64,000 nt of DNA from the NCBI RefSeq assembly GCF_019320115.1, contig NC_089581.1, forward strand, positions 70,762,448 to 70,826,447, read 5' to 3'. Both the position numbers and the translations under genes were made by a program. Source of the DNA: Miscanthus floridulus (lineage: Eukaryota > Streptophyta > Magnoliopsida > Poales > Poaceae). Positions 3,502 to 64,000 of the stretch are shown piece after piece; the first letter of the stretch is position 1, and each line of letters begins with the position of its first letter. Under the pieces are notes generated by a model. The model saw only the letters and a program-made list of their open reading frames with translations. It was not told where the DNA came from and did not search any database.

Positions 3502-6500
3502 TTAACTATCTTTAGGTGCATCAACAATGAGGGCCTCATTGTGATCAAGCCGTACGTAAGCAGGTTCATCACCCTCTTGAAGGATAGGTAGGGGTACATT
3601 CGCCCCGAATGGAGGCATTTCCTGATAGCCCCTGTAGTCTTCTTCGTCCGTCACTCCATCGACACCGACAATCTTCCTTTTCCCTTCTAGGATTACTTTT
3701 AGCCTTCCTTTTGTCTTGTTGTCCCTTGCATAGAAGACTTGCATAACATCTCTTGCAAGGACGAAGGGGTCATCTCTGTATGCGGTCTTAGTGAGATTAA
3801 CGGTAGTGAACCCTTCGTTATCAGTGTTGATTTCCTTGAGCCGGACCCACTGGCAGCGAAAAAGAGCTGCCTTCAACAGACCATAGGCTAGCTCCCATAT
3901 CTCCTCTATGAAACCATAGTATGTCGCCTGCACATTGCCATTTTCATCGTGAGCATCAAAATGAACACCACAATTTTGGTATGTGCACTTTCTATCTTGT
4001 TTTTTTTGTGTAAAATATGAATCCATTGATCTCATACCCTTGGTACTTAAGATATGTACTCGAAGGTCCCTTGGCTAAGGCATCCAGTTGATTACCCAAC
4101 TTTATTCCAAGCAAGCGATGTCTCAACTAGTTAACAAATTCCTCCTTATTTTTTTATCCAGCCAAGCCTGTGACCTGCTCGGATATAGAGTTTGCAGTGA
4201 TTGCCTGTGCTCATCAATGTATGGCATCACACCCTCGACTTGCCGGAGAACAACGAACTATGCCTATCTGAAAGAAACATGGTCATCTATTGTAACAGAT
4301 TTCTCCCCGATCGTTCCTTTGCCACGTAGTCTTCCCTCATGATGAGATTCTGGAACTCTGACCCTTTTGATGTCCAGATAATATGTGCAGAACTCAATGG
4401 CCTCCTCCATTGACCATCTTTCAACCATGCCCCCCTTCTGGCCTGAATCTATTCCTAACATACCTCCTAAAAACTCTCATCAATCTTTTGAAAGGGAACA
4501 TCTAATGCAGGTACATTGGGCCAAGGGCTCTAATTTGGTCAACAAGATGAATGAGCAGATGCAATGAGATATCAAAGTAAGTCAGCGGGAAATGCATCTC
4601 AAGCCTAACAAGAGTTTCGGCTATGTCCTACTGCAGCTTCTCTCGCATTGACACATCAATGACCTTTTTTGAGATCGCATTGAAGAACGAGCAAAGTTTT
4701 ATGATTGGGGCACAGACCTTTGGGGGGAGGATACCACATAGGGCAATAGGGAGCAACTGAGTCATAATGACATGACAGTCATGGGCCTTCACAGGGCCAT
4801 AGTTGAACTTGAGTTCTCTCATGTTCACTAGCCTCTTCGGGTTCGCACAGTAGCCCATCGGGACTTTGAGTTCATTGAAGAAAGAAATAAGCGCACGCTT
4901 TTCTTCCTTCTTCAATGTCCATGACGCAACCAGAAGTTTGAACTGACCATTTTCTAGCTCCATAGGATGCAGCTCCTTCCTGATTCCCAAGTGTTGCATG
5001 TCCAAGTGTGTGGCTAGTGAATCCTTTGATGTCCCCCCGGTGTCCATCAAGGTGTCAAGAGTGTTAGCGCACACATTTTTAGTGATGTGCATGGGATCAA
5101 GACAGTGGCGTACACTCAGAAATGGCTAGTAAGGTAGTTTCTAGAAAACTGACTTTTTCTTCCAAACGCTCCCATCAGGCGTTGCTACTGCATTGTCCCC
5201 CTTCCCAAGGACAACCTCTAGTTTGTTGAGTTCTCGAAGTATCATAGGCCTGTCTCGATATTTTGGAGCTAAGCATTTCTCAATAGTACCGTTGAAATCT
5301 TTTTTATTCCTGTGGTAAGGGTGATCCTTAGGTAAGAACCTACGGTGTCCCATATAAACTATCTTTGAGTTGTTTGGCAGATTTACCGCATCGGTGTCGT
5401 CCAAGCACTTGACACATCTAGTATAGTCTTTTGTCTTCTCTCTGAACAACAAACCTCAACCTGGCAGGTCAGTGATTGTAGCGATAAGTACTCCCTTGAT
5501 CATGACATGTTCCTTTTTGTACTTGTCGCAAACATTCAGCATACCCTTTTCAAACATCTCCACTAGTTCATCGATCACTGGTTCCAGAAACACATCGATG
5601 CCATTCCTAAGTTGTCTTGGCCCTTGGATTAGTAGTGGCATCTGGATGTATGACCACTTCATACAGACCCAAGGTGGAAGGTTGTATATACAGAGCGTCA
5701 CTGGCCAGGTGCTATGATTACTTCTAACCTAGTCGAAAGGATTCATCCCATCTGTGCTCAAAGCAAACCAAAGGTACCTTACCTCTCCACCGATGTCCTT
5801 ATAGAACATAGTATTGACAGTCCTCCAGTCATGCCGATCGGTGGGGTGCCTCATCATTGTATCTTTCTTACACTCTTCGCCATGTCAGCGCAACAGCTTT
5901 GCAGACTTTGCACATGCAAACAGCCTATGCACCCGAGGAGCTATAGGGAAATACCAAACTACCTTTACGGGACCTCCTCTGGTCTTGGTACCCTCATCTG
6001 ACGGCCCTTCCTTGTACCGTGGAGCTTCACACTTGGGGCACTTGTCGAAGTCTTTGTATTTTTCTCCACGGTACAATATGCAATCATTGGAACACGCGTG
6101 GATTTTTTCAACCTCGAGGTCGATGGGGCAGATCATTTGCTTAGCCAAGTATGTCTTTTCTGGCAACTCATTTTTTTCTGGGAGCATTTTCCTTATTATA
6201 CCTAACAACTGATCGAAGCCTTTATCGCTCAATCCGTTTGTCGATTTGAACTCTAACAGCATGATGTCGGCTTCTAGTTTGCTCATTGGACAATTCCTAT
6301 ACAATGGTGTTTTGCCATCTTGTCTCATTTTCTCTAGCTTTCTCAGCTGTCTTTCACTAAGACATCCGGTCTCTACATTACGTAGCAGCTGAGAAATGCC
6401 ATCGTTATCCTCGGTGTCATCAACTAGCGTGTTCCTAAACACATTATTAATTGTGGCCATAGGTTCCATGTTGACACCGGGTTCCTCATCAGCATCATGG

Positions 6501-6889
6501 ATGGCTATGTCAGGCATCTCCATATCATCATCGTTTTCCTGTAGAACATTCACACCAACCTCGCCATGCATAGTCCATATCATATAGTTTGGCATGAACC
6601 CCCTGGTAATCAAGTGCAATCGTATAGACTCAATTTGATGAAAGTTCCTTTGATTCTTGCTATGTTTGCATGGGCAGAAGATAGGGTTCCCATTCCCAGC
6701 ATGGGCTTTGGCATCGGTGATAAACTGGCTAACGCCATGCATGTACCGCTTGTCCATTTGGGACAGATGCATGCACTCTCGATCCATCTCTGCACAAAAA
6801 ATACTGAGACAGTAATTACAAAGAATTAATAAGAAATCGAGCTTCATGAACAATAATTGTAGCTCGAAAGTACCATTTTTGGAAAACAT
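3502..6889 (-). pseudogene. TNP2-type CACTA transposase, broken
   Basis: TNP2 is the catalytic transposase of CACTA elements. Reading from 6889 downwards, fragments appear in the expected order. First is the transposase-associated domain with a CPCKHSKN motif (~6800-6580). The Transposase_21 core follows, with IHACSNDCILYRGE and CPKCEAPRY (~6110-6000), DVFLEPVIDELVEMFE (~5600) and DPMHITKNVCAN (~5100-5060). DUF4218-type sequence with KAHDCHVIM follows (~4790). A DUF4216-type end is near 4035-3502 (EEIWELAYG, ALFRCQWV, DPFVLARDVMQVFYA). The reading frame changes several times and is stopped between 5885 and 5700, near 5453 and near 5140; some breaks may be introns, but not all. The gene cannot make a full protein as read. 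Confidence 0.85.
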
Positions 6890-7419
6890 TATTGTACACT
6901 AATTATTGGAAAATTGAAATTGGTAGCCCCGGCCCTGTAAATTGAAAATCGTAGTAAAAACAATTATTGCACAATAATAAAGAACATCTATTCTACTCTA
7001 CTTCTAAGAACTAATTATAACATCACATACTAAGAATGATGATCTTGACCACCATGGAATAATTAGCTAGGAATTTAAATGTGTTCATAGACACCGACCT
7101 TTTGGATGATGGATTCACCACAATTTGAGCCTTGCACAAATGTCTAATTCGAAAAGTGCTCTCTAGAATGGAGAAAGAACTAGAATGAGAATCAAGCAAT
7201 GTAGCCATCAAAACAAAGATAATTAAGCAACAAAATCAAAGGAGTGGATGTTTGTTACTAACCTTAAAGCAAAAAGATCAAGCCATTCTTCAAAATCCAA
7301 GCGCTAGCTTCATGGTGAAGAGCAGACGCAACAATGGAGGGAAGGACCCAAACATGCGCCTCTGTTCTCAGGATGGAAGAGAGGAGGAAGCAGAGGACGA
7401 CTGTAGCCTTTTTGTGTTG

Positions 7420-30082: not shown

Positions 30083-33000
30083 AACGACTTTCCCCTTGAC
30101 ACCTTTTCATTCCCATGGCAATATGTCTTTGGGGAGGTTCTTTTCCACAATACTGATCTTCTTAGGAAAGTCTGTGAATAGCGGCATCTCATCGTAGTTA
30201 TTGTAAGCTTCAACATCATCCACGCCATCAACTCCTAATAATGTGCTGTTTCCAGAGGCAACCACGTGCTTTGTCTTCTTCTTTGGGGGGAGGTTACTTT
30301 GTGGGTCAGACATATAGAAAACTTGTGCGACACGTGAAGCGAGCACCCAAGGGTCATCTTGGTAGCCTAGATTCTCGAGGTCCATGACTCTTAATTCCGA
30401 TCTCAGTTCAGTTGGTGTTGTTTGATCCAGTGGCATCGAAACAGGGCCACCGTTATATCCCTTCCATAGTCAAGTTCCCATATCTCTTCAATGATGCCAA
30501 AGTATTGGATCTTTCGCCCTAATCCATCGAGAGCCTCTATTCGAACGCCGTTGTTTTGGTTCACATATTTACTATCCTTTGCGTGGGTATAGTACGTATA
30601 CCCATTGATGTCATAAGCATTCCAAGATGTCACTTGTCTCGATGGCCCCTCCGCCAACCTACTGATGGTAATAGAGTCTATAGTTTCTCCAGGCGGTATG
30701 TTTTGGTCCTTCAACCATGTAGTTAGTCGTTGCTTGTGTTGTTTCATGACCCAATCATCCGAATGGCCATTTCTCTCCGCCATAATGATAGCCAAGTGTT
30801 CATCAATATACGGTTGCATCAGTTGTGTACTCTGCAAGACACTGTAATGCGCCCGACTCACCTCTTTGTAATCATGGTCGATGAACACTTTTCTACCACT
30901 GGTGCCCTTCCCAGCCAGCCTACCCTTGTGACGAGAATCGGGTTTACCAATCCCTTTCTGTACTTTTAGGTACTCTTGACAGCACTCGACGACTTCTTCA
31001 GTACTATAACCCTCTATCATGGAGCCCTCTGGGTATGCTCGATTATGCACGTATCGACTTAGAACTGACATGAACCGCTCGTAGGACCACATTTCATGCA
31101 AGTAGCAAGGGCCAAGCGCCTGTATTTGATGAACCATGTGAATCATGAGATGTGGCATTATATAAAAAAAAGCAGGAGGTAAACACATCTCCAGTTGGTT
31201 TTGTGTCTCCACCACAAATTCATGTAGGTCACTTAGCTCTTCCTTACCAATCGTCTTCTATGAGATCTTCGAAAAGAAGTAGCACATGCGGGTGATGGCC
31301 ATTTTCAAGAACTCTGGCTTTATAGCCCTGATTGCAATAGGTAGAAACACTGTCAGCATCACATGGCAATCATGAGCCTTGCAGTGTGTTATTGACAAGT
31401 CCTTCATCGACACTAGCTTCTTCACATTTGCTGAAAACCCAGTCAGGACTTTGATCCCCCTCAGGAAAGTGCATATAGCTCTCTTCTCAGTCTGGTGTTA
31501 GGTTGAAGCACAGCCGCGGGCAGAGTGTATTTTCCATTAGCCTCAGGTACCGGGTGAAGCTGTGGCATCACGTTTAGCTGCACCATGTCTTTCCTGTGCT
31601 TTCAGACCATCCTTTGACTTGCCTGTGTCCATCAAGGTAGCAATGAGACTCTCAAAGACATTCTTCTGCACGTGCATAGCATCAATGGCATGGGGGACCT
31701 CCAAGTCTGGCCAATAAGGCAGATACTGAAAGAAGATCGATTGTTTCTTGAAAGGTACGCCTTCGACAGGAGGTGTGCTTCTATCTCTGTTCGTCCCATC
31801 CGGATTCTTCTTTCCATAGACGACGCGTATGTTTTTCACCATTCTGTACACATGTTCTCCGTTATGACAGTCTCTCCGGAGGGGGTTCAATCTCTAGGGC
31901 ATTGTCATAAAATCTAAAGAACAATTTGCTGCGGTACTTGTGACTTGTCTTTAAGAAGCGTCGGTTCCTTAGGTAAACTATCTTCTTGGATGCATCCAGG
32001 TACACCCATGTAGTACCATCCAAGCAAACCAAGCATCCCGTCTTCCCTTTGATCTGTCCAGACAAAGCAAACAGCGCGGGGTAATCATTGGTAGTAACAA
32101 ATATTATTGCTCTACATATGAAGTCCTCCTTTCAGGAACACATCGTACATCTGCTCCCCATGCCTCCATAGCCTCTCCATTTCTTGCATCAAAGGCTCGA
32201 GGAACACGTCTATATCAATGCCTGGTTGTTTAGGGCCAGAAATAAGAATAGTGAGGAGAAGGTACTTTCTCTTCTGACACAACCATGTTGGGATGTTGTA
32301 CATGGTCAAGATCACTGGCCATGTGCTGTGGTCGCTCATCCTCTCATTGAAGGGATTCATTCCATCGGTGCTCAAGCCAAACCATACATTCCTTGGGTCA
32401 TCGCTGAATTCTTTGTGCTTCTCATCAAACCTTTGCCACTGACTACAATCAGCCGGGTGTGCAATCTTATCATCATCCACCTTGCGCTCATCATCCCACC
32501 ATGTCATGAGTGTGGCTTCTTTAGGGTTTAGGAAGATACGTCTCAAGCGGTCGGTCACTGGCAGGTACCACGTTACTAAGGTAGGAATTCTTCTCTGCTT
32601 TGCATCGTTGCCTAATGGAGTGTCCTCTGGGGGCTGAGATTCTTGTACCACCTTTTTTGTACCCTTCTTATTCCTCTTTTTCCCCATGGAGGCTTCATCC
32701 CCACCGTAAAGGTCATTGTTCTTGTACCGGCTGGCCCCACACCGGGGACATTTATCCAGTGACTTGAACGTTTCGCCATGAAAAAGTATACAGTGGTTGG
32801 GGCATGCATGGATTTTTTCAACCCCCATTGTCAATGGACTTATGACCTTCTTCGCTTGGTATGTGTTGGTGGGAACTGAGTTTGGTTGTGGCAGCACCCA
32901 TGACAGGAGATGCAATAGATCATTGAAACTACAGTCTGACCAGCCGTACTTAGCCTTCAGGATGAGCAGCTCAAGCACAAAACGTAGCAATGTCCAATGT

Positions 33001-33578
33001 GTCGGACAACCCTTTTCAACACCATACACAGTCTCCTTCGATGCTTTTGTCACCCTTTCCAAATTTTCTAGACCTTTCAGGCTATTTAGTAAAATCTCTG
33101 GTCCAAGGGCTCGAATCATGTCCTCCAAATCATCTTCATCCCCGACACGTGCTCCACCATCATTATTGGCACCACCTTCGTCGTTACCATCCCAACCACC
33201 AGCATCACCACCTTGTTCATTGCCAAACTCAAAATCCATTCGTGCATCAAGCTCTGCTGAATATTGGGATAGGGATTCTATGGTTTCGTCGTCGTATTCC
33301 TCCTCATCCTCGTCGTTAACAATAACCATTTCACCATGATGAATCCACACTGTGTAGTCCTCAACAAATCCTCGCATAATCAAATGTGATCTGATGATAG
33401 TCACATCTGTCCATGCCATACGGTTCTTGCAATCTTTACATGGGCAAATAATTGTATCCTTATTCTCTTTCAATGTCGTTGCATGCTTCTTTGCGGCTTC
33501 AATAAATTTATCCACCTCTTCACGGAAACCTGCCTTGAACCTTAACGAACCATACATCCAAGAGTTCCTGTACTCCAT
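30083..33578 (-). pseudogene. TNP2 transposase of CACTA element 2
   Basis: This is the catalytic transposase. ATG at 33578 opens a 488-codon frame: transposase-associated domain (YGSLRFKAGFREEVDKFI, CPCKDCKN, HLIMRGF; residues ~10-85), an acidic glycine-rich linker (~90-155), then Transposase_21 with EKIHACPNHCILFHGE, CPRCGASRY, DIDVFLEPLMQEMERLW. It continues at 32065 (GCLVCLDGTTWVY) and 31890-31543 (HAIDAMHVQKNVFESL), then DUF4218 (LHEMWSYERFM, 31130-31080) and DUF4216 (ALFRCHWIKQ, 30450) to about 30083. Frame changes near 31860 and 31590 and a stop near 32110 break it, unless one is an intron. A TATA box at 34323-34330 precedes it. Confidence 0.85.
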
Positions 33579-33579
33579 C

Positions 33580-34320
33580 TTTTACAACAACAACAAAACA
33601 AACATTAAAGGACTACTTATTCAGATATATATAAAAATGAAACAAATTAATAATTACTTGAGAATAATTGTATATACTTCAGATATATATGAATATAAAT
33701 CTAATATAATTACATGAAGCATACAAACACACCATGGTAAAGGAAAATTAATTAATGGCCCATTTATCCATAAATAATTAAAATACATATTTATTGATTA
33801 CAATAAATAATTTCAAAGACAACAATTAGCAACAATTATACTTTACCCAATATCTTTCATACAAACCCTAGTCCAATTTCATCAAACATAAATTTACAAA
33901 AACGAAATTAATAAAAAAACCAAACCCTAGATCTAGATCCACATGCACATGAAACATCCATAAAACTAACTAATTGTTCACTAAAATCAAGAAACATGGA
34001 CCAAATAAGGGTATGATCTTGTTCCCCTCCCTAATTTACCCTAGTACATTTAAAACTTGGGTCTAATTTGCTTCATAAATAGCTCAAGCACCATAGAAGA
34101 GAGAGAAAAACAAAACTCTAATTACTCACTAACCAACCATTAAAACTTCAAAAAAAAGTATGGAATAACATTTTCTTACCTTCTACAACCTCTCCACCAA
34201 AGGATTTGAGACCAAAACCTTCCCCCTTAGTAGAGCAATTTTTGGGAGGTGCCCAAGGCCTCCCCACCTTTCTTTCACGGGTTGGAGTGAGTGACCCGAG
34301 GAGTAAGAAGGTGCTGCATC
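33580..34320 (-). other. 5' untranslated/intron region of TNP2
   Basis: AT-rich, non-coding, between the terminal TATA box and the TNP2 ATG (both minus strand). Nothing else is recognisable. Confidence 0.5.
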
Positions 34321-47642: not shown

Positions 47643-50453
47643 ATGGCCACCCACGCAATCAGCTAGGCCCCGGGCGCACATGTGCGTTTTGGTGACCTAG
47701 ATTTCATCGTCACACTAGGAGGAGAACTGGTGCTGACCCACACGGCCGCACAGTCTCTCCCTTCCATCAACCTCAGCCGTCTGAGGCTTGAGGACCTACG
47801 GGGCGACTCCCTTGGACCCTAGTTATCTAGGGAGCCCCCGCGTAGCATCACCCTGTTTCCGAAAGGCCCCGTACGAAGCGCCCCGACAGCGTTTCCATTC
47901 GGTCTCCGCAATGCCACGGCGACCACCGGCCACCTTCTGGCACTACGCATGGTTCAGCCACCTACGGACAGCGAGTTCATGGGGGTAATCGAACACGATC
48001 CGAAGACACTCTATGGGCTCCTCACGGAGGAACCAGAGTCGTCCTCTAGCTCTGACTCTAGTAGGGGGAGCCATCACCCTTCCTGAGAGTGCTTCATGGT
48101 GCGGACCCCCGAGGGGCATGTCGAGGATGTCTCCAGGGATGAGGCTACCCCATCTCGTTTGGGGATGGAGCAACTGAGAGCCCGCAAGTAGGAGATCGAT
48201 GAGGCCGAACAAGGGCTCGTCCAGGAGTATGTGGACATCAATCGCGAGATTGAACGTCGTGAAGGCGGTGGGCGCGCACGCACCATGGCCCGCACCATAC
48301 ACCAGAGGATCCTCACTAATTACGGGGGCCTTCCTCACTTCGCTCGGGCAAGCCAAAACATTGCCGCAGCGAAGGCCTTGCTGCACGGCCTTCTAGAGGC
48401 TGCAACGTCTGAGGATCGCCATGCCCGTTGAGAAATTCGCATGTTGCTCGAGCGTGCAGTGGCGCAGCAGGCGGAAAGCTCGTTGTCTTGATGACACGAA
48501 CCCGACACTAGCCAGTGCATGCCCTCAGTGCATCCGACCAAGGACGCATCTGTTTACCAAACACCGCCAGGCGGCAAGCAGCCCTCTGCCGTCCCGGTGC
48601 ATCAACGCCTCGGCCATGACCGCGACGTACGCAGCACCATCGACGCTCACAAATGCGCCCACGGCAACGATGGAGAGGCAGCACGCCACGGCTACCATCC
48701 CCGATGTGGCGGATGCTATGACAGCAACGAGGACCAAAGCCCGAGCCCTGGCCTGCCAGGCCCTCAGGCCTTTGGCCGACACATCCTCAATGCTACGTTC
48801 CCGCTAAGGTATCGACTGCCTACCAACATCCCTAAATATTCTGGGGAAACAAACCCCGGGCTTTGGCTCGAAGACTATCGGCTTGCATGTTAGGCCGGTG
48901 GTGCAAGTGATGATGATTTCATTATTCGCAATCTCCCACTATTCTTGGCCGATTTGGCACAAGCATGGTTGGAGCACCTACCGTCCAACGCCATTCAAAG
49001 TTGGGCGGATCTGACAAAGATCTTCGTGGGAAACTTCCAGGGCATGTACAAATGCCCTAGAAGCCCATGGGACCTCAAGAACTGCCGCCAGAAGGCCGAT
49101 GAAACCCTCCGCGAGTACATCTAGCGCTTCTCTCGGTAGTGCAACGAGCTCCCTAACGTTGCTGACGCCGACGTGATAGGAGCCTTCCTATCTAGGACAA
49201 CCTGCGAGTCTCTGGTACACAAGTTAGGGCGCAGGGGCCCGTGGACCACCAAGGAGCTCCTAGACATCGCCACCAGTCATGCCTCAGGAGAGGAGGCGGT
49301 CGGAGCCATCTTCGACCGTTCCGATGGCAAGGTGAGGCGGGACGAGGATGCCGACGAGGGCGCTTCCAACCATCCCGCCAAAAGAAAGAATAAGAAGCAA
49401 TGGCGCGACAACTCGCTCATGGCCGTAGCCAGTCGCAAGGGTGGCTGGAAGCCTGCGAAGGGCGTTCTGAACCAATTTGAGAAAATGCTCGAAGGGCCAT
49501 GCCTAAACCATGCCTTCCCGGCCAAGCATCTATACAAGGATTGCGGCCTCATGCGCAAATACTTGTCCGGGGGCCTCAATAAAGGGGAGCAGGGGAAGGA
49601 ACCTACCCCCACTATAGACGACGCAGAGGAGAAGGACGACGCCTTCCCAATACCGACTGGTGTGCTCATGATCTTCAGAGGATCAGTGGCCTACGACTCC
49701 AAGCGCCGTCAGAAGGTCACGCGCCGCGAGGTCTATATAGCCGGACCGGCCATATCTACTTTCCTTCGGTGGTCAGAATCCGCCATAACCTTCGACCGGA
49801 CCGACCATCCGGATGCCATCCCACACCTAGGAAGGTACCCGCTTGTTGTCGATCCGATCGTTGGCCCAAAGCGGCTCACAAAAGTACTGATGGACGAAGG
49901 CAGCGGCCTCAACATCATGTACGCCAAGACGCTCGACGAGATGGGAGTCGACCGAACCAACCTCTGCCCTGTCCGAGCACCTTTCCATGGCATCATGCTT
50001 GGTAGGTAGGCCATGCCACTAGGGAAGATCGATCTACCCGTCACTTTCGGGGATCAGTCCAATTACCGGACTGAGACCCCCACCTTCGATGTAGTGGGGT
50101 TCCTGGGAACTTTCCACGCCATCCTGGGACGACCATGCTACGCGAAGTTCATGGCCATCCCCAACTATATGTACCTCAAGCTAAAGATGCCGGGCCCCCG
50201 CGGGGTCATCACCATCAGCACCTCCTTCCGTCGTGCTTACAAGTGCGAAGTCGAATGCTGTGGCCATGCCACAACAGTCGTCGCCTCTGAAGAGCTCGCC
50301 ACCCTCAGGGAGGAGGTTGCCGAAAAAACGCCCGACACCGAGAAAACAATTGGGTCATTCAAACCAGCAGAGGGCACCAAGGAGGTCCTCGTGGACCCCA
50401 GTAGCTCCGAGGCTAAGAGGGTATGCATCGGTACTACGCTCTCCTCCGAATAG
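47643..50453 (+). pseudogene. Tat gag-pro, interrupted only by stop codons
   Basis: One reading frame runs from ATG 47643 (MATHAIS) to 50453 with twelve in-frame stops: 47661, 47820, 48084, 48189, 48429, 48489, 48492, 48891, 49122, 49137, 50007 and 50451. No frameshift occurs within it. The N-terminal half is low-complexity. The gag core starts near 48805 (LPTNIPKYSGETNPGLWLED, ~48814-48875; FLADLAQAWLEHLPSNAI; NCRQKADETLREYI). A retropepsin-like region follows at ~49840-50180 (VLMDEGSGLNIMYAKTLDE with the catalytic D-x-G/S block, and HAILGRPCYAKFMAIPNY). All stops are TAG or TGA where the family has Gln or Arg. The 1-bp shift into pol is just after 50453. Confidence 0.88.
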
Positions 50454-53400
50454 GAAAGCGCCGCTCGTTGACTTCCTCCGCAATAACAAAGACATCTTTG
50501 CGTGGAAACCCTTGGATATGCCAGGCATCCCAAGGGAAGTCGCTGAGCATACCTTAAAAATCCACCCAGGCTCCAAGCCGGTGAAGCAACGGCTACGCCG
50601 CTTCGACGAGGAAAAGCACAGGGCCATCGACGAAGAGATAGCAAAACTGTTGGCTGCTAGGTTCATCAAAGAAGTATACCACCCAGAGTGGCTAGCAAAT
50701 CCCGTTCTTATACGAAAGAAAAGCGGGAAATGGAGGATGTGTGTCGACTACATGGGCCTCAATAAGGCGTGCCCAAAGGACCCGTTTCCTCTGCCATGTA
50801 TTGACCAAATAGTTGATTCCACCTCAGGGTGCGAAACCCTCTGCTTCCTTGACGCATACTCCGGCTACCACCAGATTGCAATGAAAGAGTCCGACCAGCT
50901 CGCGACATCTTTTATCACCCCCTTTGGATCGTTCTGCTATGTTTCAATGCCGTTCGGACTGAAGAATGCTGGGGCAACTTACCAGCGCTGCATGCTCAAC
51001 TGCTTCGGCGACCTCATCAGGCGGACCATTGAGGCCTATGTCGACGACCTTGTCGCTGACCTTAAACAAACCTTTGCGAAACTCCGGGCTAACGGCATCA
51101 AACTCAATCTCGAAAAATGTGTTTTCAGGGTCCTGAGGGGCATGCTGCTCGGCTTCATTGTCTCCGAGCGCGGCATCGAAGCCAACCCAGAGAAGATATC
51201 AGCCATCACAAAGATGGGCCCGATCCAAAACATAAAGGGGGTTCAGCGGATCACAGGGTGCCTTGCCGCCCTCAGCCGATTCATTTCGTACCTCAGCGAA
51301 CGAGGACTCCCCCTTTATCGACTCTTGAAGAAATCTGACCGCTTTGAGTGGACAGCCGAGGCTCAGGAGGCGCTTGACATGGTTAAGCAATTTCTAACTA
51401 AACCTCTGGTCCTAGTTCCTCCATGCAATGGAGAATCCCTCCTACTGTATATATCAGCCACCATGCAAGTGGTCAGCTCCACCTTAGTGGTAGAGCGAGA
51501 GGAAGAGGGGCATGCCTTCAAGGTACATCGCCCTGTGTATTTTATTAGCGAGGTGCTATCCGACTCCAAAACCCGTTACTCCCAAATCCAGAAACTCCTC
51601 TACACTGTCCTCATCACCAAGAGAAAGCTACGCCACTACTTCGAGTCACACCCTGTGACAGTCGTGACGTCTTTCCCCCTTAGCGAGGTCGTCCATAGCC
51701 AGGATGCTACAGGAAGAACCGCAAAGTGGGTGCTCAAGCTATTGGATCAAGGCAGTACTTATGCCCCCCGAACAACAATCAAATCCTAGGTGCTGGCTGA
51801 CTTCATCATGGAGTGGACCGAGGTCCAGATGCCACCAGCAGTCGTCAATCAAGAGTACTAGACGATGTACTTCGATGGATCACTGATGAAGAAAGGCGTC
51901 GACGCGGGACTAGTCTTCGTATCTCCCCTCGGGGTTCTCATGAGGTACATGGTTCGGCTCCATTTTCCCTCATCAAAGAATATCGTAGAATACAAAGCGC
52001 TCATCAACGGCCTATGAATCGCCATCGAGTTGGGCATCCGACGTCTCGACGTCAGAGGTGACTCCCAGCTGGTCGTCAACTAGGCCATGAAGGAATCAAG
52101 CTGCCACGATGCCAAGATGGAGGCATACTGTCAAGAAGTTTGATGGCTGGAGGACAAATTTGATGGCCTCAAACTCAATCACATCCCAAGGCACCTCAAC
52201 GAAGCAGCCGACACACTTGTGAAAGTAGCATCCAGCCGAGAGCTAGTCCTAGTAGGTGTCTTTGCCAGCGATCAATGCAAACCCTTGGTATGCTATGCGG
52301 GGTCGGAACAAGCCCACGATGGCCCATCTAGCCCAACCCTAGGAGCCAATCCGCCAACTGCTCCGCCTGACCCTAAGGTTATGGAGCTTGAAGAGGACCC
52401 AGTAGCGGAGTCCGATCCTCCCGACGACTGGAGAATGCTTTACCTTGACTACCTCCTCTGCGACATACTACCAGCAGACAAGATGGAAGCCCGACGGCTC
52501 GCACATCGCGCCAAGTCCTCCATTCTTATAGAGGGCGAACTCTACAAACAGAGTCACATCGGGATCCTGCAGCTCTGTATCCCTGGCGAACAGGGAAAAC
52601 TCCTGCTAGGCGATATCCACAGTGGGGCTTGTGGTCATCATGCCATAGCAAGGACCTTGGTTGGGAATGCATTCCGACAAGGCTTCTACTGGCCCACCGT
52701 AGTAGCCGATGTCGAGCAAATTGTGCGCACCTGCGAAGGATGTCAGTACTATGCTCGGCAGACTCACCTCCCGGCCCAGGCGCTCTAGATGATCCCCATC
52801 ACATGGCCCTTCATGGTCTGGGGGCTCGACCTAGTTGGGCCACTCAAAAAGGCACTCGGGGGCTTCACCCACCTACTTGCCACCATAGACAAGTTTACAA
52901 AATGGATAGAAGCTCGACCGATCTCCACGATCAAATCCGAGCAAGCTGTGCTATTCTTCCTCGACATCATCCATCGCTTTGGAGTACCGAACTCCATCAT
53001 CACAGACAACGGCATATAGTTCACCGGTAGGAAATTCATTCAATTCTACGATGAACAACACATCCGGATCGATTGGGCAGCTGTCGCATACCCCCGGACG
53101 AATGGGTAGGTCGAGCGCGCAAACGGCATGCTCCTTCAAGGCCTTAAGCCCAGAATTTTCAACCGGTTGAACAAGTTCGGCGCTCGCTGGCTCGCTGAGC
53201 TTCCGGCCGTGCTCTGGAGCCTAAGGACAACTCCTAGCCAGGCCACTGGCTACACACCCTTCTTCATGGTCTACGATTCCGAGGCCATTCTCCCAACGGA
53301 CCTCGACTATGGAGCACCAAGAATCAGAGCATACGACGAATAGGGGGCCGAGGCATCTCACCAAGACACCATGGACCAGCTAGATGAAGCCCGCGACATC

Positions 53401-58530: not shown

Positions 58531-61500
58531 TGTAACACCTCTGGTGTTTTGACCTAATACTAAAATTTGACATGTCATCATGTGCATTGCAAAGCATTCA
58601 TATAGTATAAAGTTTTGAATGCATTCACTAAATAAGGTTTATTTCATAATGTTGTTATTTCATGTGATGTGTTTCAAAAACCTTAAACAAAGATCATGAC
58701 CACAAGGGTCAAATTTCATGTGATCATGTGAGACCATGTGTCATTTGACTCAAATAACCCTAATGGGCCATGTTACTGGTCAAAAATCAAAATTTAAGTA
58801 AAAGGAAGACAAATCAAATTTGAATTCACATTCAAATCATAAAAGTCCTTTTTGCCCCTTTTAATTAATTCAAAATCCATGAGGAATTTGGGGTTGAGGC
58901 AAAAAGCAAAGTTGGAGATTATTTTATGGAGATCAACTTTGGTATTCAAAGTTTTTCAAGTTTACATATAAAATTTGGAGTAATTTTGAAATGATTCAAA
59001 TCTTTAAATGTACCCCAAATTTGAATTTCAAAATGGAGGCAAAATTTGAAAATGTTTCTTAAACCAAAGTTGTAGTACTTGAAAAATTGAACAACTTTCA
59101 TTTTTGGAGATTTTCAACTTCTTTAGAAAATTTCTGAGTAATTTGAGAAATGAATGCAGTGGCAGTTCTGTAATTATTTCAAAAATCATCTCCACCTCAC
59201 TGCTTGCCGCCGGCGCCACGCGGGGGGGTCACCGCCGATCAAATTTCGCTGCTTTCCCATGTGCAGGCACGTCACCGTCGCTGTGGCGTCTCCGTCGTGC
59301 GCTGTCGCAGCCGGGCGAGCTCATCCCGGCTATAAATAGCCACCGTCGCCGCCGTCGTCATCGTTTTCCCCTCTGCTCTGCTCCGCCACCGTATAGCTCC
59401 GCCGCTCGCCGTAGGCCTCGTCGAGCCGCGTCAGCCGTTCCCAGCTACGTCAACGTGATCGCATTGGTCTTGCGCTCCTCCTCGACTTGCTCTCGTCGCT
59501 GGTGTTGGCCGGAATCGCCCGGCGCAACCCGTCTTCCCCGTGACCGGTCAGAGCTCCGCCGCGACTGCCCTCACCGTGGCCAGGCTGCTCCAGACCATCT
59601 CCGACTGCTCCAAGCACATCATCGTGATCACTGTGAGCTCCTGAGCATGTTGCTCACTCTTCCTTTGACTCTACCGCGCCGTAGCCCTAGTTACATCGAC
59701 CGCCGTCGGGTCCGAGCCACCATGGTCGGCGTCGAGTTCCATCCGGTGTGTCCTTTTCTGTTCTGAGGCTTGGGATAGATGCGCGACTTGGTGTAGATCA
59801 TGTAGGAGCAGTCCGTGTCGCCGGAGAGTCACCACCGGCGCGTTTTGCTGGCCGGAGCTGGCCACGCCGCCGCGTCTTGCCCACTGTCGCTGACACGTGG
59901 GGTCAGGCTGTCAGTGATGCTGAGGAAGAAGAATAGTAAGCTTTGGTTATTTTCTGATTTTGAATAGTGCAGCAATTTTGCAATTTTGTAGGAATTTATT
60001 TACACATCCAAAAATTCTGAAAATTTTTGTGTAGCTTCTGTACATGTTCTAGTATGATTTAAAAATTTGAAATTTGAAATTTGGATAAATTTTGAATGTT
60101 CAAATATTCAGTCCATTAATTGAAAAATGCAATTTCCATGATTTTTGTAGGTCACTGTATAATTCCAAAAATTATGAAATTTGTTTTGGTACACTAATTT
60201 GTCATAAGGAAGCTTACATAAAATTTTCAGGTCATTTGGAACAAGTTTATTTTTGGGCTTAATTCCAAATTAATTCAAAAATAGATAAAAGCAAACCCTA
60301 AGCGTTTGATTAGTGTTGGATCTTGTTTTGGTCATGTTTTGTGACTAGTAGGGTTCCAAGATCCATTAGGTCAAGTCACATGTGTGGTTCTTAATGATAG
60401 GGTTACAGGTTGGTTTTGTTGGCTTGTAACTGTACCGCGAAATCAAATCGGTTGCGGGTGTTTTTACATTTCATGTGCCGTGAAAGCATCATGTTTACAT
60501 TATCATCATGTTAAAGCATATGTTGTTATTTCGTGTAGAACCCGAGAACGAAACAATTCTAGTTGAGCAAGTTCTGGAAGAATCCCTCGGTTGTCACGGG
60601 ATTTGATAATTGTGGTACTAATCTGGAACCGGAAATCGTCAACGAAGGCAAGCCCCGGTTTATGCATTAAGCCATCACCTTGTTACTTTGAAAAGTTATC
60701 ACCTATGTTACTTATTGCATTAAGTTGATTAATTCAAATGTTACCTACTTGATGCATTAGCCTACCTTGATAATTGTTTACCATCCTTGAAGATGTTTTA
60801 TTTACAAAGGCGTAGAATGCTTAGTATGCTTTATGATAGGCTTTCAAAGTAAAAGTTTTGATACAATCAAAGATGGCATACTGGCCAAAGAAAGAAAGAA
60901 GGTAGAATGAACTAGAGACTAGTCGGGTGACTTATCTTGAATGTTGGGTAATGTTGCCGACTATGTCGCTTAAAGGCCACTCATTGTGGATCTTCTGAAC
61001 GAGACACTTTGTAGTACTGGTCACATACTCCGGTAAGCCTACTTCGGCTAATCCGATACTAAGACGAATGCCCGCGCACTGGGAGTGGAGAGATGGCGGG
61101 AGTAGCGTGTACCCTCGTGGCTGGAATGTGGCCGGATTTGAGGTGTGCTGTGCTCTCGGGTGGCGTGGAGACGGCTTAGTATAGGAGGATCCGGTAGCGA
61201 GGTTGATATATGCAAGATTTAGTTCTACATATGTCGTGTGATAAGGAATCCCCAGCTGGACTTGAATCAATTCGAATTGCCGGTGCTCCGCGGATATGGA
61301 GACTCGATTCATTACAGAAGCAATGTAGTACTGGTGAATTACTAAAATATGAGAAAAAGAATGGAATGAGAAGGAATGGAATATGGGAAATGTATATTTA
61401 GTTGAGATAATGAACTAAAAGAACTTAGTGGTAGACTTGAAAATAGAATGAAGGATAGTAAGCTTTTGGCAAAGAACTTTTGAATCTTGCTACATCCTTA

Positions 61501-62035
61501 CCTTGCCCCAAATCCCTGCATCTCTAAAGTCTTACACCCCGTTACGTCGGGTTAGTCTTGTTGAGTACCTTTGTACTCAGGGTTTGTTAACCCTTGTTGC
61601 AGGATGAGTCGCATGCGCAGGCTTGTTTTGGTCCCTGCTGCATGTCTGTGTTTGAAGTCAATGACGATGAGGAGTGATGAATGGCCTTTGGACAAGGCAC
61701 TAGTTTGTATGATAAATAAAGTTAATGTAATATTATCCCGCTACTATGGTTGTATAACACTTATGGTATTGTAAGTTTGAAAACAACTAGGTTTGTAATT
61801 ATGTTATCTTAAGACTTCCGCTATCTTTTACTCTGGTATATATTTGAATAAACTGTTGTAATCTGCAATGACTGTGATTGGGATCCTGTTTGAAAAGAGA
61901 ATCGTGGATGATTCGGGTTTCCCGAGGACACCCGACAGACCTGTTGAGTTGTTGGGAACTCGTGTACGCTATCCGAGGTCTGTTAAGACAACGATAGGTG
62001 TATGTGGGCCCGATTCCTTAGGAGGTTCTGCCACA
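58531..62035 (+). repeat. 5' LTR of the Tekay element
   Basis: TGTAACACC at 58531 to ..tctgccaca at 62035 (3505 bp). A TATA box TATAAATA lies at 59331-59338, followed by a GC-rich island (59340-59930) that probably starts the transcript. The GC-rich island is open in several frames (for example 59104-59766), but I see no domain. The remainder is AT-rich U5-type sequence. Confidence 0.85.
59331..59338 (+). promoter_or_regulatory. TATA box of the Tekay LTR
   Basis: TATAAATA preceding a GC-rich leader, about 800 bp into the LTR; the expected transcription start is near 59360-59370. Confidence 0.65.
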
Positions 62036-62037
62036 GC

Positions 62038-62052
62038 TGGTATCAGAGCAGT
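62038..62052 (+). promoter_or_regulatory. primer binding site (tRNA-Met) of the Tekay element
   Basis: TGGTATCAGAGCAGT, two bases after the LTR end; complementary to initiator tRNA-Met, as in other Tekay elements. Confidence 0.9.
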
Positions 62053-62422
62053 TCCCATCTAAGATCATTGTAGGTTACTTTGGAAAACCTTCAAAATGAT
62101 TTGGATCAAGGAAAGTAAACATGATATTTTGAAAGTTCAATTTCTTTCTTCTTACCTTTGATCTAGACTCAATCCTAACTTATTTGAAAAGTTTGTGGCG
62201 GATAATATGATTAGGTTTGTCCTATGTATTATGAAAATCTAGTACTTATGATTATATTAATCTTTTGTACTTAGATTCGTAAGATCGATTCATGCATCAT
62301 GCTTGAGCACATTGCATAATAATTCCCCTTAATAGTGGTTGGGTAAGTAATGTCAATCCCATTCTTGCTAACCTCCATTATCCTCAAGCTATTCTTATAG
62401 TCCTACCTAAATCGTATAGGCT

Positions 62423-62960
62423 ATGGCAAAGACCAAGAAAACCGCACGCAAGTCCACGGGACCTCACGGAGTCCCTCGTCACTAGTTGGCACCACGAAAC
62501 CATGAGCTTGGTGAAGGAAGTGCCAAGACCCTAGGAGAGGAAGGATCTTCAAGCAACCCCGTCAACGTCGAGAACCTTAACAAGGAGCTCAACACTCTTC
62601 GTCGAGCTCATGCTAAAGATCAAGAAGAACTGGCGGAAATGCAAAGGGGTATCACCATGACCATGGAGCTGCGGAATGAAGCCTAGGACACGAGAAGATG
62701 CGGCCAATGAATGCGTCAATGAGTTGGAGTTCTACGTAGAGGACCTGGAGATGGACAATGCCATCCTTCATGAAAATGTCCATATGCTGTATGCTCAACT
62801 TCATCCTCCTCATGGGGATGGTGAAGTTACCGATGAAGAAATGATTGTAGCTCCAGGAGAAGTCGAGAATGAAGAAGAGGAGGAGGATCCTGAGGAGTTA
62901 GTGTACTTCTCAGATGAAGATGAGGTTTCATCTGATACGGGCACGGATGCCGAAGACTGA
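62423..62960 (+). pseudogene. leader ORF with histone H3 tail-like N-terminus, coiled coil and acidic tail
   Basis: ATG at 62423 gives M-AKTKKTARKSTG-PHGVPRH, then TAG (62483-62485) where Gln would restore the H3-like QLA, then LAPRNHE. After the initiator Met, ten of the first twelve residues equal histone H3 (ARTKQTARKSTG), keeping the K4, R8, K9, S10 and T11 positions; the VPR-H-QLA context echoes H3 APRKQLA. A helical, coiled-coil-prone part follows (NVENLNKELNTLRRAHAKDQ, ELAEMQRG). A second TAG (62684) and a 1-bp frameshift come next, then ELEFYVEDLEMDNAILHENV and a very acidic tail (ENEEEEEDPEEL, FSDEDE) to TGA at 62958-62960. About 178 codons if intact. It lies between primer site and gag. 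Function unknown; this copy is broken at codon 21. Confidence 0.8.
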
Positions 62961-63079: not shown

Positions 63080-63100
63080 TCAATAAAGAATAATGTAAGT
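63080..63100 (+). terminator. possible poly(A) signal between leader ORF and gag
   Basis: AATAAAGAATAATGTAAG, about 125 bp after the leader ORF and 35 bp before the gag ATG. It could end a short leader-ORF transcript, or be chance in AT-rich sequence. Confidence 0.3.
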
Positions 63101-63119
63101 AAATGTGTTTCTCTAACAG

Positions 63120-64000
63120 ATGCCTCGTCCTATCACCCGAACTGGTGCTAGTGGCTCGCATGATGATGATGAGTGCCCAAATCCTCCACCAATGCCCTCG
63201 ACTATGGCAGATGCCATAGCTGCACTCGTCAACGCAACGGCAGAGAATGCTAGGCTGTTAAGGGAGTTGGCGCAGAACCAGCAGGCACCATACCCTAATC
63301 GTGGCCATCATAATAATGGAAACGACGAGTCAACTTATGTGGATTTTACTGACACACGTCCGCCTGTGTTCTCAAAGGCAGACGAACCTTTAGAAGCTGA
63401 TGATTGGCTTAGGACAATAGAGCAAAAGTTCGAGCTAATCCACTGCACTGAGGTTCAAAAACCAAGGTTTGCGGCACAGCAACTCCGAGGAGCTGCTGGT
63501 GCTTGGTGGGCAAATTTGGTAGCAGTACAGCCCGTTGGTCACCAAATCAACTGGAGGGAGTTCAAGGATGCCTTCAGGGCACATTATATTCCAGACGGTG
63601 TGATGACCATGATGTTGGAAGAGTTCTTGGCTCTTAAGCAAGGGGAGCACCCAGTGATGCAGTATGTTGGGCGTTTCAACCACCTGTCTCAGTATGCTAT
63701 TGAGTATGTCAATACGGATAGGAAGAAAAAGAATCATTTTCTTCGAGGCTTGAACACTAAACTTCAGACAATGATGACAGCCTGTGGTAATGCAACTTAC
63801 CATGAAACAATCAACATTGCTATCGCTTCGGAAGAAAATTACCGCCGACACAAGGAGGCGAAGAAGAAGAAAATATTTGCTTCCGGATCATCAAGTGGCA
63901 AGCGTCAGAAGATAGTATACCATCCTCAGAATCATGGCCGTACGCCATTCCACCCACAACAAGGCCAAAGCAGGCAACAAATCTTCATTTGCCCTGCAAC
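63120..64000 (+). CDS. Tekay gag (partial, open to the window end)
   Basis: Capsid/nucleocapsid precursor that packages the element's RNA. ATG at 63120 gives MPRPITRTGASGSHDDDE and an uninterrupted frame of 293 codons to the window end. The gag domain occupies residues ~75-240: FTDTRPPVFSKADEPLEADD, DWLRTIEQKFELIHC, RFAAQQLRGAAGAWWANL, INWREFKDAFRAHYIPDGVM, LKQGEHPVMQYVGRFNHLSQ, HFLRGLNTKLQTMM. It ends with a basic stretch (HKEAKKKKIF) leading to the expected zinc knuckle beyond the window. These blocks are those of Tekay/Del chromovirus gag. It is the only long unbroken retrotransposon frame here. It starts about 1.08 kb after the primer site, because the leader ORF lies between. Confidence 0.92.
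   Translation, partial: MPRPITRTGASGSHDDDECPNPPPMPSTMADAIAALVNATAENARLLRELAQNQQAPYPNRGHHNNGNDESTYVDFTDTRPPVFSKADEPLEADDWLRTIEQKFELIHCTEVQKPRFAAQQLRGAAGAWWANLVAVQPVGHQINWREFKDAFRAHYIPDGVMTMMLEEFLALKQGEHPVMQYVGRFNHLSQYAIEYVNTDRKKKNHFLRGLNTKLQTMMTACGNATYHETINIAIASEENYRRHKEAKKKKIFASGSSSGKRQKIVYHPQNHGRTPFHPQQGQSRQQIFICPA

Follow-up and report, generated by a model that had tools for sequence, protein, structure and literature searches.

What is a histone H3 tail doing at the start of a retrotransposon reading frame? This question is raised by the last few kilobases of the window, the 64,000-nucleotide stretch of Miscanthus floridulus DNA analyzed here, in which a Ty3-type element carries a separate reading frame, ORF0, upstream of a gag that runs past the window edge. 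An earlier note on this DNA had described this frame as a leader ORF opening with an H3-tail mimic. The parts of the element lie as follows.

58531..62035, + strand: 5′ LTR of about 3.5 kb, starting with TGTAACACC and ending with CA (alignment of the 3′ LTR start, L029)
62038..62049, + strand: primer-binding site TGGTATCAGAGC, which we take to be of the tRNA-Met type (sequence)
62423..62482, + strand: ORF0 head, the H3-tail mimic, codons 1-20, up to an in-frame stop (sequence, PDB search, shuffles)
62483..62686, + strand: ORF0 read on past the stop without a change of frame, covering the remainder of the head, the linker and the helix as far as its middle, and closed by a second stop, codon 88 (sequence)
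62676..62960, + strand: second half of the ORF0 helix and acidic tail, in another frame (matches to the C-terminal half of intact relatives, P0050)
63120..64000, + strand: gag, running off the window (Pfam Retrotrans_gag, E 1.3e-19; Ty3_capsid, E 1.2e-10)

The start of the 3′ LTR (L029), which lies past the window, is 98.9% identical to the window from 58531 over 1138 bp, with 12 mismatches, and the end of the 5′ LTR was fixed by the primer site located just 3′ of it. Because the LTRs are 98.9% identical, the insertion is young, about 0.4 million years old at a substitution rate of 1.3e-8 per site and year. The integrase chromodomain that the earlier note expected of a Tekay element was found beyond the window: a chromodomain is present at the integrase C-terminus (Pfam PF00385, E 4.9e-7 in copy L031), as in Tekay (Del) elements. 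In the grass elements Retrosat2, RIRE3 and RIRE8, an ORF0 has been described that was found in grasses only, is of unknown function, and evolves faster than gag-pol (PMC3485330). The window element resembles them in being a grass element with an extra ORF 5′ of gag-pol, here a separate frame between the primer site and gag, and in its LTRs of about 3 kb or more, here about 3.5 kb. By ORF position and LTR length, the window ORF is an upstream ORF0 of the Retrosat2/RIRE3/RIRE8 type of grass elements. Elsewhere, the window contains pieces of CACTA-type transposase on the minus strand (30406-33581 and 5888-6898; Transposase_21 (tnp2), Transpos_assoc and DUF4218) and a second retroelement at 49140-51789 on the plus strand, with RVT_1 and RNase H domains at 50185-51786.

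The frame at 62423 reads MAKTKKTARKSTGPHGVPRH. Ten of the twelve residues after the Met are those of H3, as the earlier note had counted, and the likeness indeed runs on, with PR-x-QLA next and one extra residue. The same note had treated 62423-62960 as one ORF and had given the residue at codon 21 as a bracketed Q; this does not hold, since codon 21 is TAG (62483-62485) and the frame shifts near codon 88. Intact copies read QLAPRN where the window ORF0 has its stop, and the window copy is thus broken although its insertion is young. The coiled coil and acidic tail that had also been proposed are recognizable in intact relatives as a long helix followed by an acidic tail. Many ORF0 proteins from metagenomes (P0002, P0004, P0005, P0008 and others) stop at exactly 87 residues (...NEA), close to the break of the window copy, and the first stop falls after 87 or 89 codons in 4 of 37 genome copies; this end is either a recurrent decay site or a spreading short form.

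The likeness of ORF0 to the H3 tail is real. In a search of 177,635 distinct PDB sequences with the window's first 20 ORF0 residues, histone H3 was the best match (E 0.041), and the best 60 of the 114 matches were all H3 or H3 variants. The full 187-residue ORF0 P0109 also had H3 as its top match among PDB sequences (E 0.047), 59 of its best 60 matches being H3-like, and its first 26 residues, a family B head, retrieved H3 first at E 5.6e-4, with an alignment starting from the Met. No H3 was present among the 6 PDB matches of P0010, a family A protein with two head changes. The alignment of ORF0 with H3 spans the Met to K23, with one extra residue. When the window head was shuffled with its composition preserved, 4 of 20,000 sequences equaled its score (z 5.9); for the heads of seven relatives, z ranged from 5.6 to 8.8, and 0 to 5 of 20,000 shuffles equaled the score. 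These data demonstrate that, as in the histone mimics of parasites, an H3-tail sequence is present beyond chance in an unrelated protein. ORF0 gives no indication of a histone fold: even with E values up to 1 allowed, no histone family of Pfam matched it, and it had no Pfam match above cut-off. Weak Pfam matches to ATG16, Bestrophin and FAM76 look like coiled-coil noise and were discarded.

ORF0 is not confined to this insertion. With the piece 62423-62686 as query (stop read as X), 49 relatives were retrieved; a profile search yielded 467 proteins at E up to 10, the best 120 of which include intact 178-residue proteins and more distant families, and a third search yielded 1816 proteins at E up to 10, the best 120 being mainly of family D (P0119 type). 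A search of viral contigs and prokaryote genome contigs returned no relative. Many of the family D proteins (P0122-P0238) lie on long metagenome contigs under names such as 'glutamine synthetase type III', 'chromosome segregation ATPase' or 'RmuC', and are probably plant retrotransposon proteins mislabeled as bacterial.

In the window's own genome (2.68 Gb, 2420 contigs), two ORF0 families, A and B, were found. A DNA search gave 40 ORF0 matches that were scored; in 37 copies, the first stop came after 178 codons (24 copies), 177 codons (3) or fewer (10), so that the frame, whose integrity across copies the earlier note had proposed to check, is open for 177 or 178 codons in 27 of 37. The best 150 protein-search matches for each of families A and B were practically all full length, and by our own count 131 of those for family A are stop-free. 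Family D was absent from the best 150 matches to the D query, which reached at most 41% identity, and the three that were read belong to family B. The candidates of the first look (1189 in the DNA search; 8833, 9198 and 8010 with the A, B and D queries) are not copy numbers, since the A, B and D sets overlap and the D query gave 8010 although family D was not found; a genome holds hundreds and probably thousands of ORF0 copies. In family A copies with the exact motif, the primer site lies 382-388 nt 5′ of ORF0. At two places, ORF0 copies with identical scores are evenly spaced, by about 6.1 kb (G000:C2259) and about 14.5 kb (C9:139104791-139134378), which reflects either tandem element arrays or an assembly effect. 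A one-off gene capture, named in the earlier note as the case that would undo its reading, is excluded by the recurrence of ORF0 in many copies and in diverged families.

Five family representatives (P0050, P0109, P0119, P0111 and P0099) share 19-22 of 25 residues in their heads; their bodies, which still match one another when the head is left off, are only 26-44% identical. In an alignment of 20 chosen sequences from these families, 11 of the 15 invariant columns fall within the first 23 residues. Comparing 57 distinct intact copies of family A with 22 of family B, we obtained a pN of 0.171 and a pS of 0.619 for the head, and pN values of 0.62, 0.395 and 0.405 for the linker, the helix and the tail, respectively. 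This comparison had taken intact frames with T6 and K9; picking copies by body and start codon alone (68 distinct A and 23 distinct B, after 5 A copies with an indel or lost start were dropped) gave practically the same head values, pN 0.170 and pS 0.621. The low pN and high pS show that the head protein is under selection, and the frequent use of different codons in A and B for the kept residues indicates that selection acts on the protein rather than on the DNA. Purifying selection, which the earlier note had proposed to look for, is thus apparent in a head that is the slowest-evolving part between families and recurs in diverged ones. Within family A, by contrast, the helix (pN 0.021) and the tail (0.022) evolve more slowly than the head (0.032). 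Among 73 distinct sequences from 87 A copies, the N/S ratio was 0.83 for variants common to at least three copies and 1.32 for singletons, with about 2.5-2.8 expected from the codons without selection, bearing in mind that copies chosen by similarity favor conserved ones and lower N in all classes. The ratio for shared variants is also 0.83 in codons 1-26, on small counts (10 N, 12 S). We therefore read ORF0 as an accessory protein that Tekay/Retrosat2-type elements of grasses have conserved.

Which residues of the H3 tail have been kept? Heads could be scored in 184 of 238 proteins; most of the other 54 begin at a later Met, several D proteins start one codon late (V), and a few were missed by the pattern. 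Of the scored heads, 169 were labeled A, B or D, labels that are rough in that many of the 15 'other' heads are D. K9 is kept in 67/68 A, 11/11 B and 89/90 D heads, and T6 in 68/68, 11/11 and 82/90, respectively. R8 is kept in 58/68, 9/11 and 75/90; it is lost to C or H, the residues that decay of methylated CpG yields, and in one head to S. R8-K9-S10-T11-G12 forms a well-kept core. Q5 and A7 are variable, with P, Q, T or W standing in for A7 in families B and D. At the extreme N-terminus, R2 is K in 61/68 A heads, T3 is A in 21/23 distinct B copies of the window's genome, and K4 is R in 45/90 D heads. At position 14, family B has K (11/11), whereas H prevails in A and F, H or Q in D; none of the 169 heads retains K18 (H in 165), and position 23 is R in 157/169 and K in 2. 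In short, K9 stays, and the lysines that accept acetyl or ubiquitin are mostly gone.

The boundary of the likeness points to its source. In each of the six intron-containing H3 genes that were read from the window's genome, K23 is the last residue of the first coding exon and GT comes next, and the likeness of ORF0 to H3 stops at that same exon boundary. At 15 synonymous positions, the modal head of family B has the codon of H3 gene L127 in 12 cases, where the codon use of the element itself predicts 5.3 (P 0.0003; another run gave 0.0001), and that of L131 in 11 (P 0.002), values to be read in the light of 16 modal-head comparisons and of the apparent close relationship of L127 and L131. Single B copies share 10/14 (L124, P 0.005), 9/15 (L125, P 0.03) and 8/15 (L123, P 0.10) codons with L127. 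The family A head shares 7-8 of 15 with the six intron-containing genes, and the two intronless H3 genes share 3-4 of 15 with the modal heads, none of which is significant; the significant codon similarity is thus largely that of the modal B head to a single pair of related H3 genes. Exon boundary and codon use make it likely that the head is an old capture of the first coding exon of a host H3 gene with introns, which for that reason would be of the H3.3 type. CAG directly precedes the start codon in two of the six H3 genes (L128 and L133), as YAG stands near the ORF0 start, and the captured exon may have included a splice site.

Three sequence signals flank ORF0 in the window.

62417..62419, + strand: candidate 3′ splice site just before the ORF0 ATG (sequence signal)
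63082..63087, + strand: AATAAA, a poly(A)-signal-like site between ORF0 and gag (sequence)
63117..63119, + strand: candidate 3′ splice site (CTAACAG) touching the gag start codon (sequence signal)

A YAG lies within 3 nt of the ORF0 ATG in 57/57 A and 22/22 B distinct intact copies, and where the interval is available, AATAAA is found between ORF0 and gag in 27/28 A and 20/20 B copies, the last one in family A lying 22-38 nt before the gag ATG in 23 copies and 129 nt before it in 4. CAG adjoins the gag ATG in most copies and is absent in a few. In family A copies with a delimited leader, 6 to 11 ATGs precede ORF0. This arrangement suggests two alternative spliced messages, one that would end after ORF0 and one that would skip ORF0 for gag. 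Only families A and B speak for splicing, as five D-family proteins (P0183, P0194, P0223, P0228 and P0234) have YGD before the Met and so cannot have a YAG within 3 nt of it. Expression of Retrosat2 has been detected by RT-PCR in rice leaf, sheath and flower (PMC3485330).

The predicted shape of ORF0 is a disordered H3-like tail on a long helix: AlphaFold2 modeled a helix at residues 46-126 of P0050 with high confidence and at residues 36-135 of P0119, with low-confidence ends in both. The last 52 residues of P0050 include 23 D/E and no K/R. This acidic tail is present in families A and B and cannot be essential, since it is absent in D.

We propose, with a confidence approaching but not reaching even, that ORF0 is an H3-tail copy on an oligomeric helix that acts as a decoy for host silencing enzymes or readers. 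The first 25 residues (Met, residues 1-23 and one inserted residue) would be a copy of the H3 tail kept since its capture, and the long helix would probably form a coiled-coil oligomer, so that several H3-like tails may be displayed together. These tails could occupy the host H3-tail enzymes and readers of the silencing system, above all H3K9 methyltransferases, or VIM/UHRF1-type proteins, and would thereby reduce H3K9 and DNA methylation of the element while it is active. With lysines 18, 23 and mostly 14 replaced, the bait would be unable to take the marks placed there. As K9 is kept and the other lysines are lost, a bait for K9 writers or VIM/UHRF1-type proteins appears favored over a chromodomain ligand. 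A strict N-terminal reader would not be served in all families, given the changes of R2 to K in A, K4 to R in D and T3 to A in B. Against a decoy for K9 enzymes stands the retention of P16, Q19, L20 and A21, which such an enzyme need not read. Plant VIM proteins are described as lacking the Tudor domain by which UHRF1 reads K9 methylation (PMC8594673). A more detailed scenario, in which the element took the first coding H3 exon, perhaps with its splice site, and kept it as a separately spliced bait, with K9 intact but without the lysines that accept acetyl or ubiquitin, against the loop of H3K9 and DNA-methylation silencing, is somewhat less likely than not.

Other uses of the head have to be weighed. 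The H3-like tail might be a chromatin tether that binds host H3 readers and brings gag or integrase complexes to chosen chromatin. PHD-type readers grip an A-R/K-T-K N-terminus, which most family A heads and at most half of the family D heads retain, and the helix could join ORF0 to other element proteins. Against this, gag and integrase have coding regions of their own that showed no link to ORF0, and K4 is R in half of family D; a tether is unlikely. A borrowed signal for nuclear entry is an equally unlikely purpose. Histone importins use the H3 tail as a cargo signal, and the head is short, basic, disordered and N-terminal, with R17 and a basic residue at 23 mostly kept. Import, however, would need only basic charge, and T6, S10, T11, G12, P16, Q19, L20 and A21 are kept too; moreover, K14, K18 and K23 of H3 are important for importin binding, and K18 and K23, as well as K14 outside family B, are replaced.

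The earlier note had put forward a third use, in which the methylated head is bound by the integrase chromodomain of the same element. The element family does have such a domain (PF00385), with a chromodomain stretch in 4 of 5 translated copies, some with stops (the fifth is L033). Canonical chromodomains bury A7 of H3, a residue that varies in the heads and is replaced in families B and D. Aligned with MPP8, the L031 chromodomain keeps W at the second cage position and has H at the third, the first lying outside the alignment; the aromatic cage thus looks incomplete. Chromoviruses of seed plants are reported to lack the methyl-lysine cage (Neumann et al. 2019, PMC6317226). The partner of type II chromodomains is given as unknown in that paper, and a 2012 paper states that the interacting factor of plant CHD_II chromodomains had not been found (PMC3350952), which leaves a place for such a ligand. 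Yet type II domains are described from many seed plants (PMC3350952) and ORF0 from grasses only (PMC3485330). The apparently incomplete cage and the replacement of A7 speak against this use, which we consider improbable, and a decoy for host H3-tail enzymes in silencing is the most likely reading of the sequence.

That the head is a captured exon with no present function, conserved through the youth of its copies or as a DNA signal for packaging or splicing, is very unlikely: ORF0 does begin at a possible splice site, where cis signals are often found, but A and B have diverged at the silent sites of the head (pS 0.62, median dS about 1.3) with little change in its protein, and the head is kept in five diverged families. 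Chance resemblance of a basic peptide to H3, whose tail is simple in composition, was already refuted by the PDB searches and the shuffles (0 to 5 of 20,000 same-composition sequences equaling the score for the 8 heads tried), and is scarcely conceivable given that start-codon register, recurrence in five families and exon boundary all agree.

The decoy reading has relatives among known systems. VANC of VANDAL21 is likewise an accessory transposon protein proposed to counter silencing; unlike the proposed ORF0 decoy, it acts on its own DNA, and we know of no histone likeness in it. Among viruses, influenza NS1 (ARSK) and SARS-CoV-2 ORF8 (ARKS) are described as parasite proteins bearing an H3-tail motif (PMC10208167); ORF0 resembles them in this, but their motifs have 4 residues, whereas that of ORF0 has some 23, in start-codon register and matching one exon, and is carried by a transposable element. 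H3-like segments in non-histone proteins are also described for PAF15 and LIG1, whose H3 mimics act in DNA-methylation upkeep by engaging its machinery (PMC8594673); these are host proteins of the DNMT1/UHRF1 pathway, whereas ORF0 comes from the kind of element that such machinery silences. The Retrosat2-type ORF0 proteins are presented in PMC3485330 as metabolic enzymes on the basis of structure models, in contrast to the H3-tail head found here, and the words 'histone' and 'mimic' are absent from the main text of that paper; our ORF0 is linked to that of Retrosat2 by its position and by LTR length. A 2019 survey of extra ORFs applied a minimum of 250 codons (PMC6317226) and would miss ORF0, whose frames have 178-205 codons. 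Among the best-ranked titles in the open-licence literature, we recognized no earlier report of the H3 likeness of ORF0 or of an H3 mimic in a plant transposon.

If the more detailed scenario of a captured exon kept as a bait is true, ORF0 would be, as far as is known, the first histone mimic in a transposon. ORF0 has been described without an obvious function, and a selected H3 head provides a concrete and cheap starting point. If the decoy is true, it would show how an abundant type of grass element may live with the silencing system, would extend histone mimicry from viruses to transposons, and would supply a natural tool for interfering with H3K9 or VIM function in plants.
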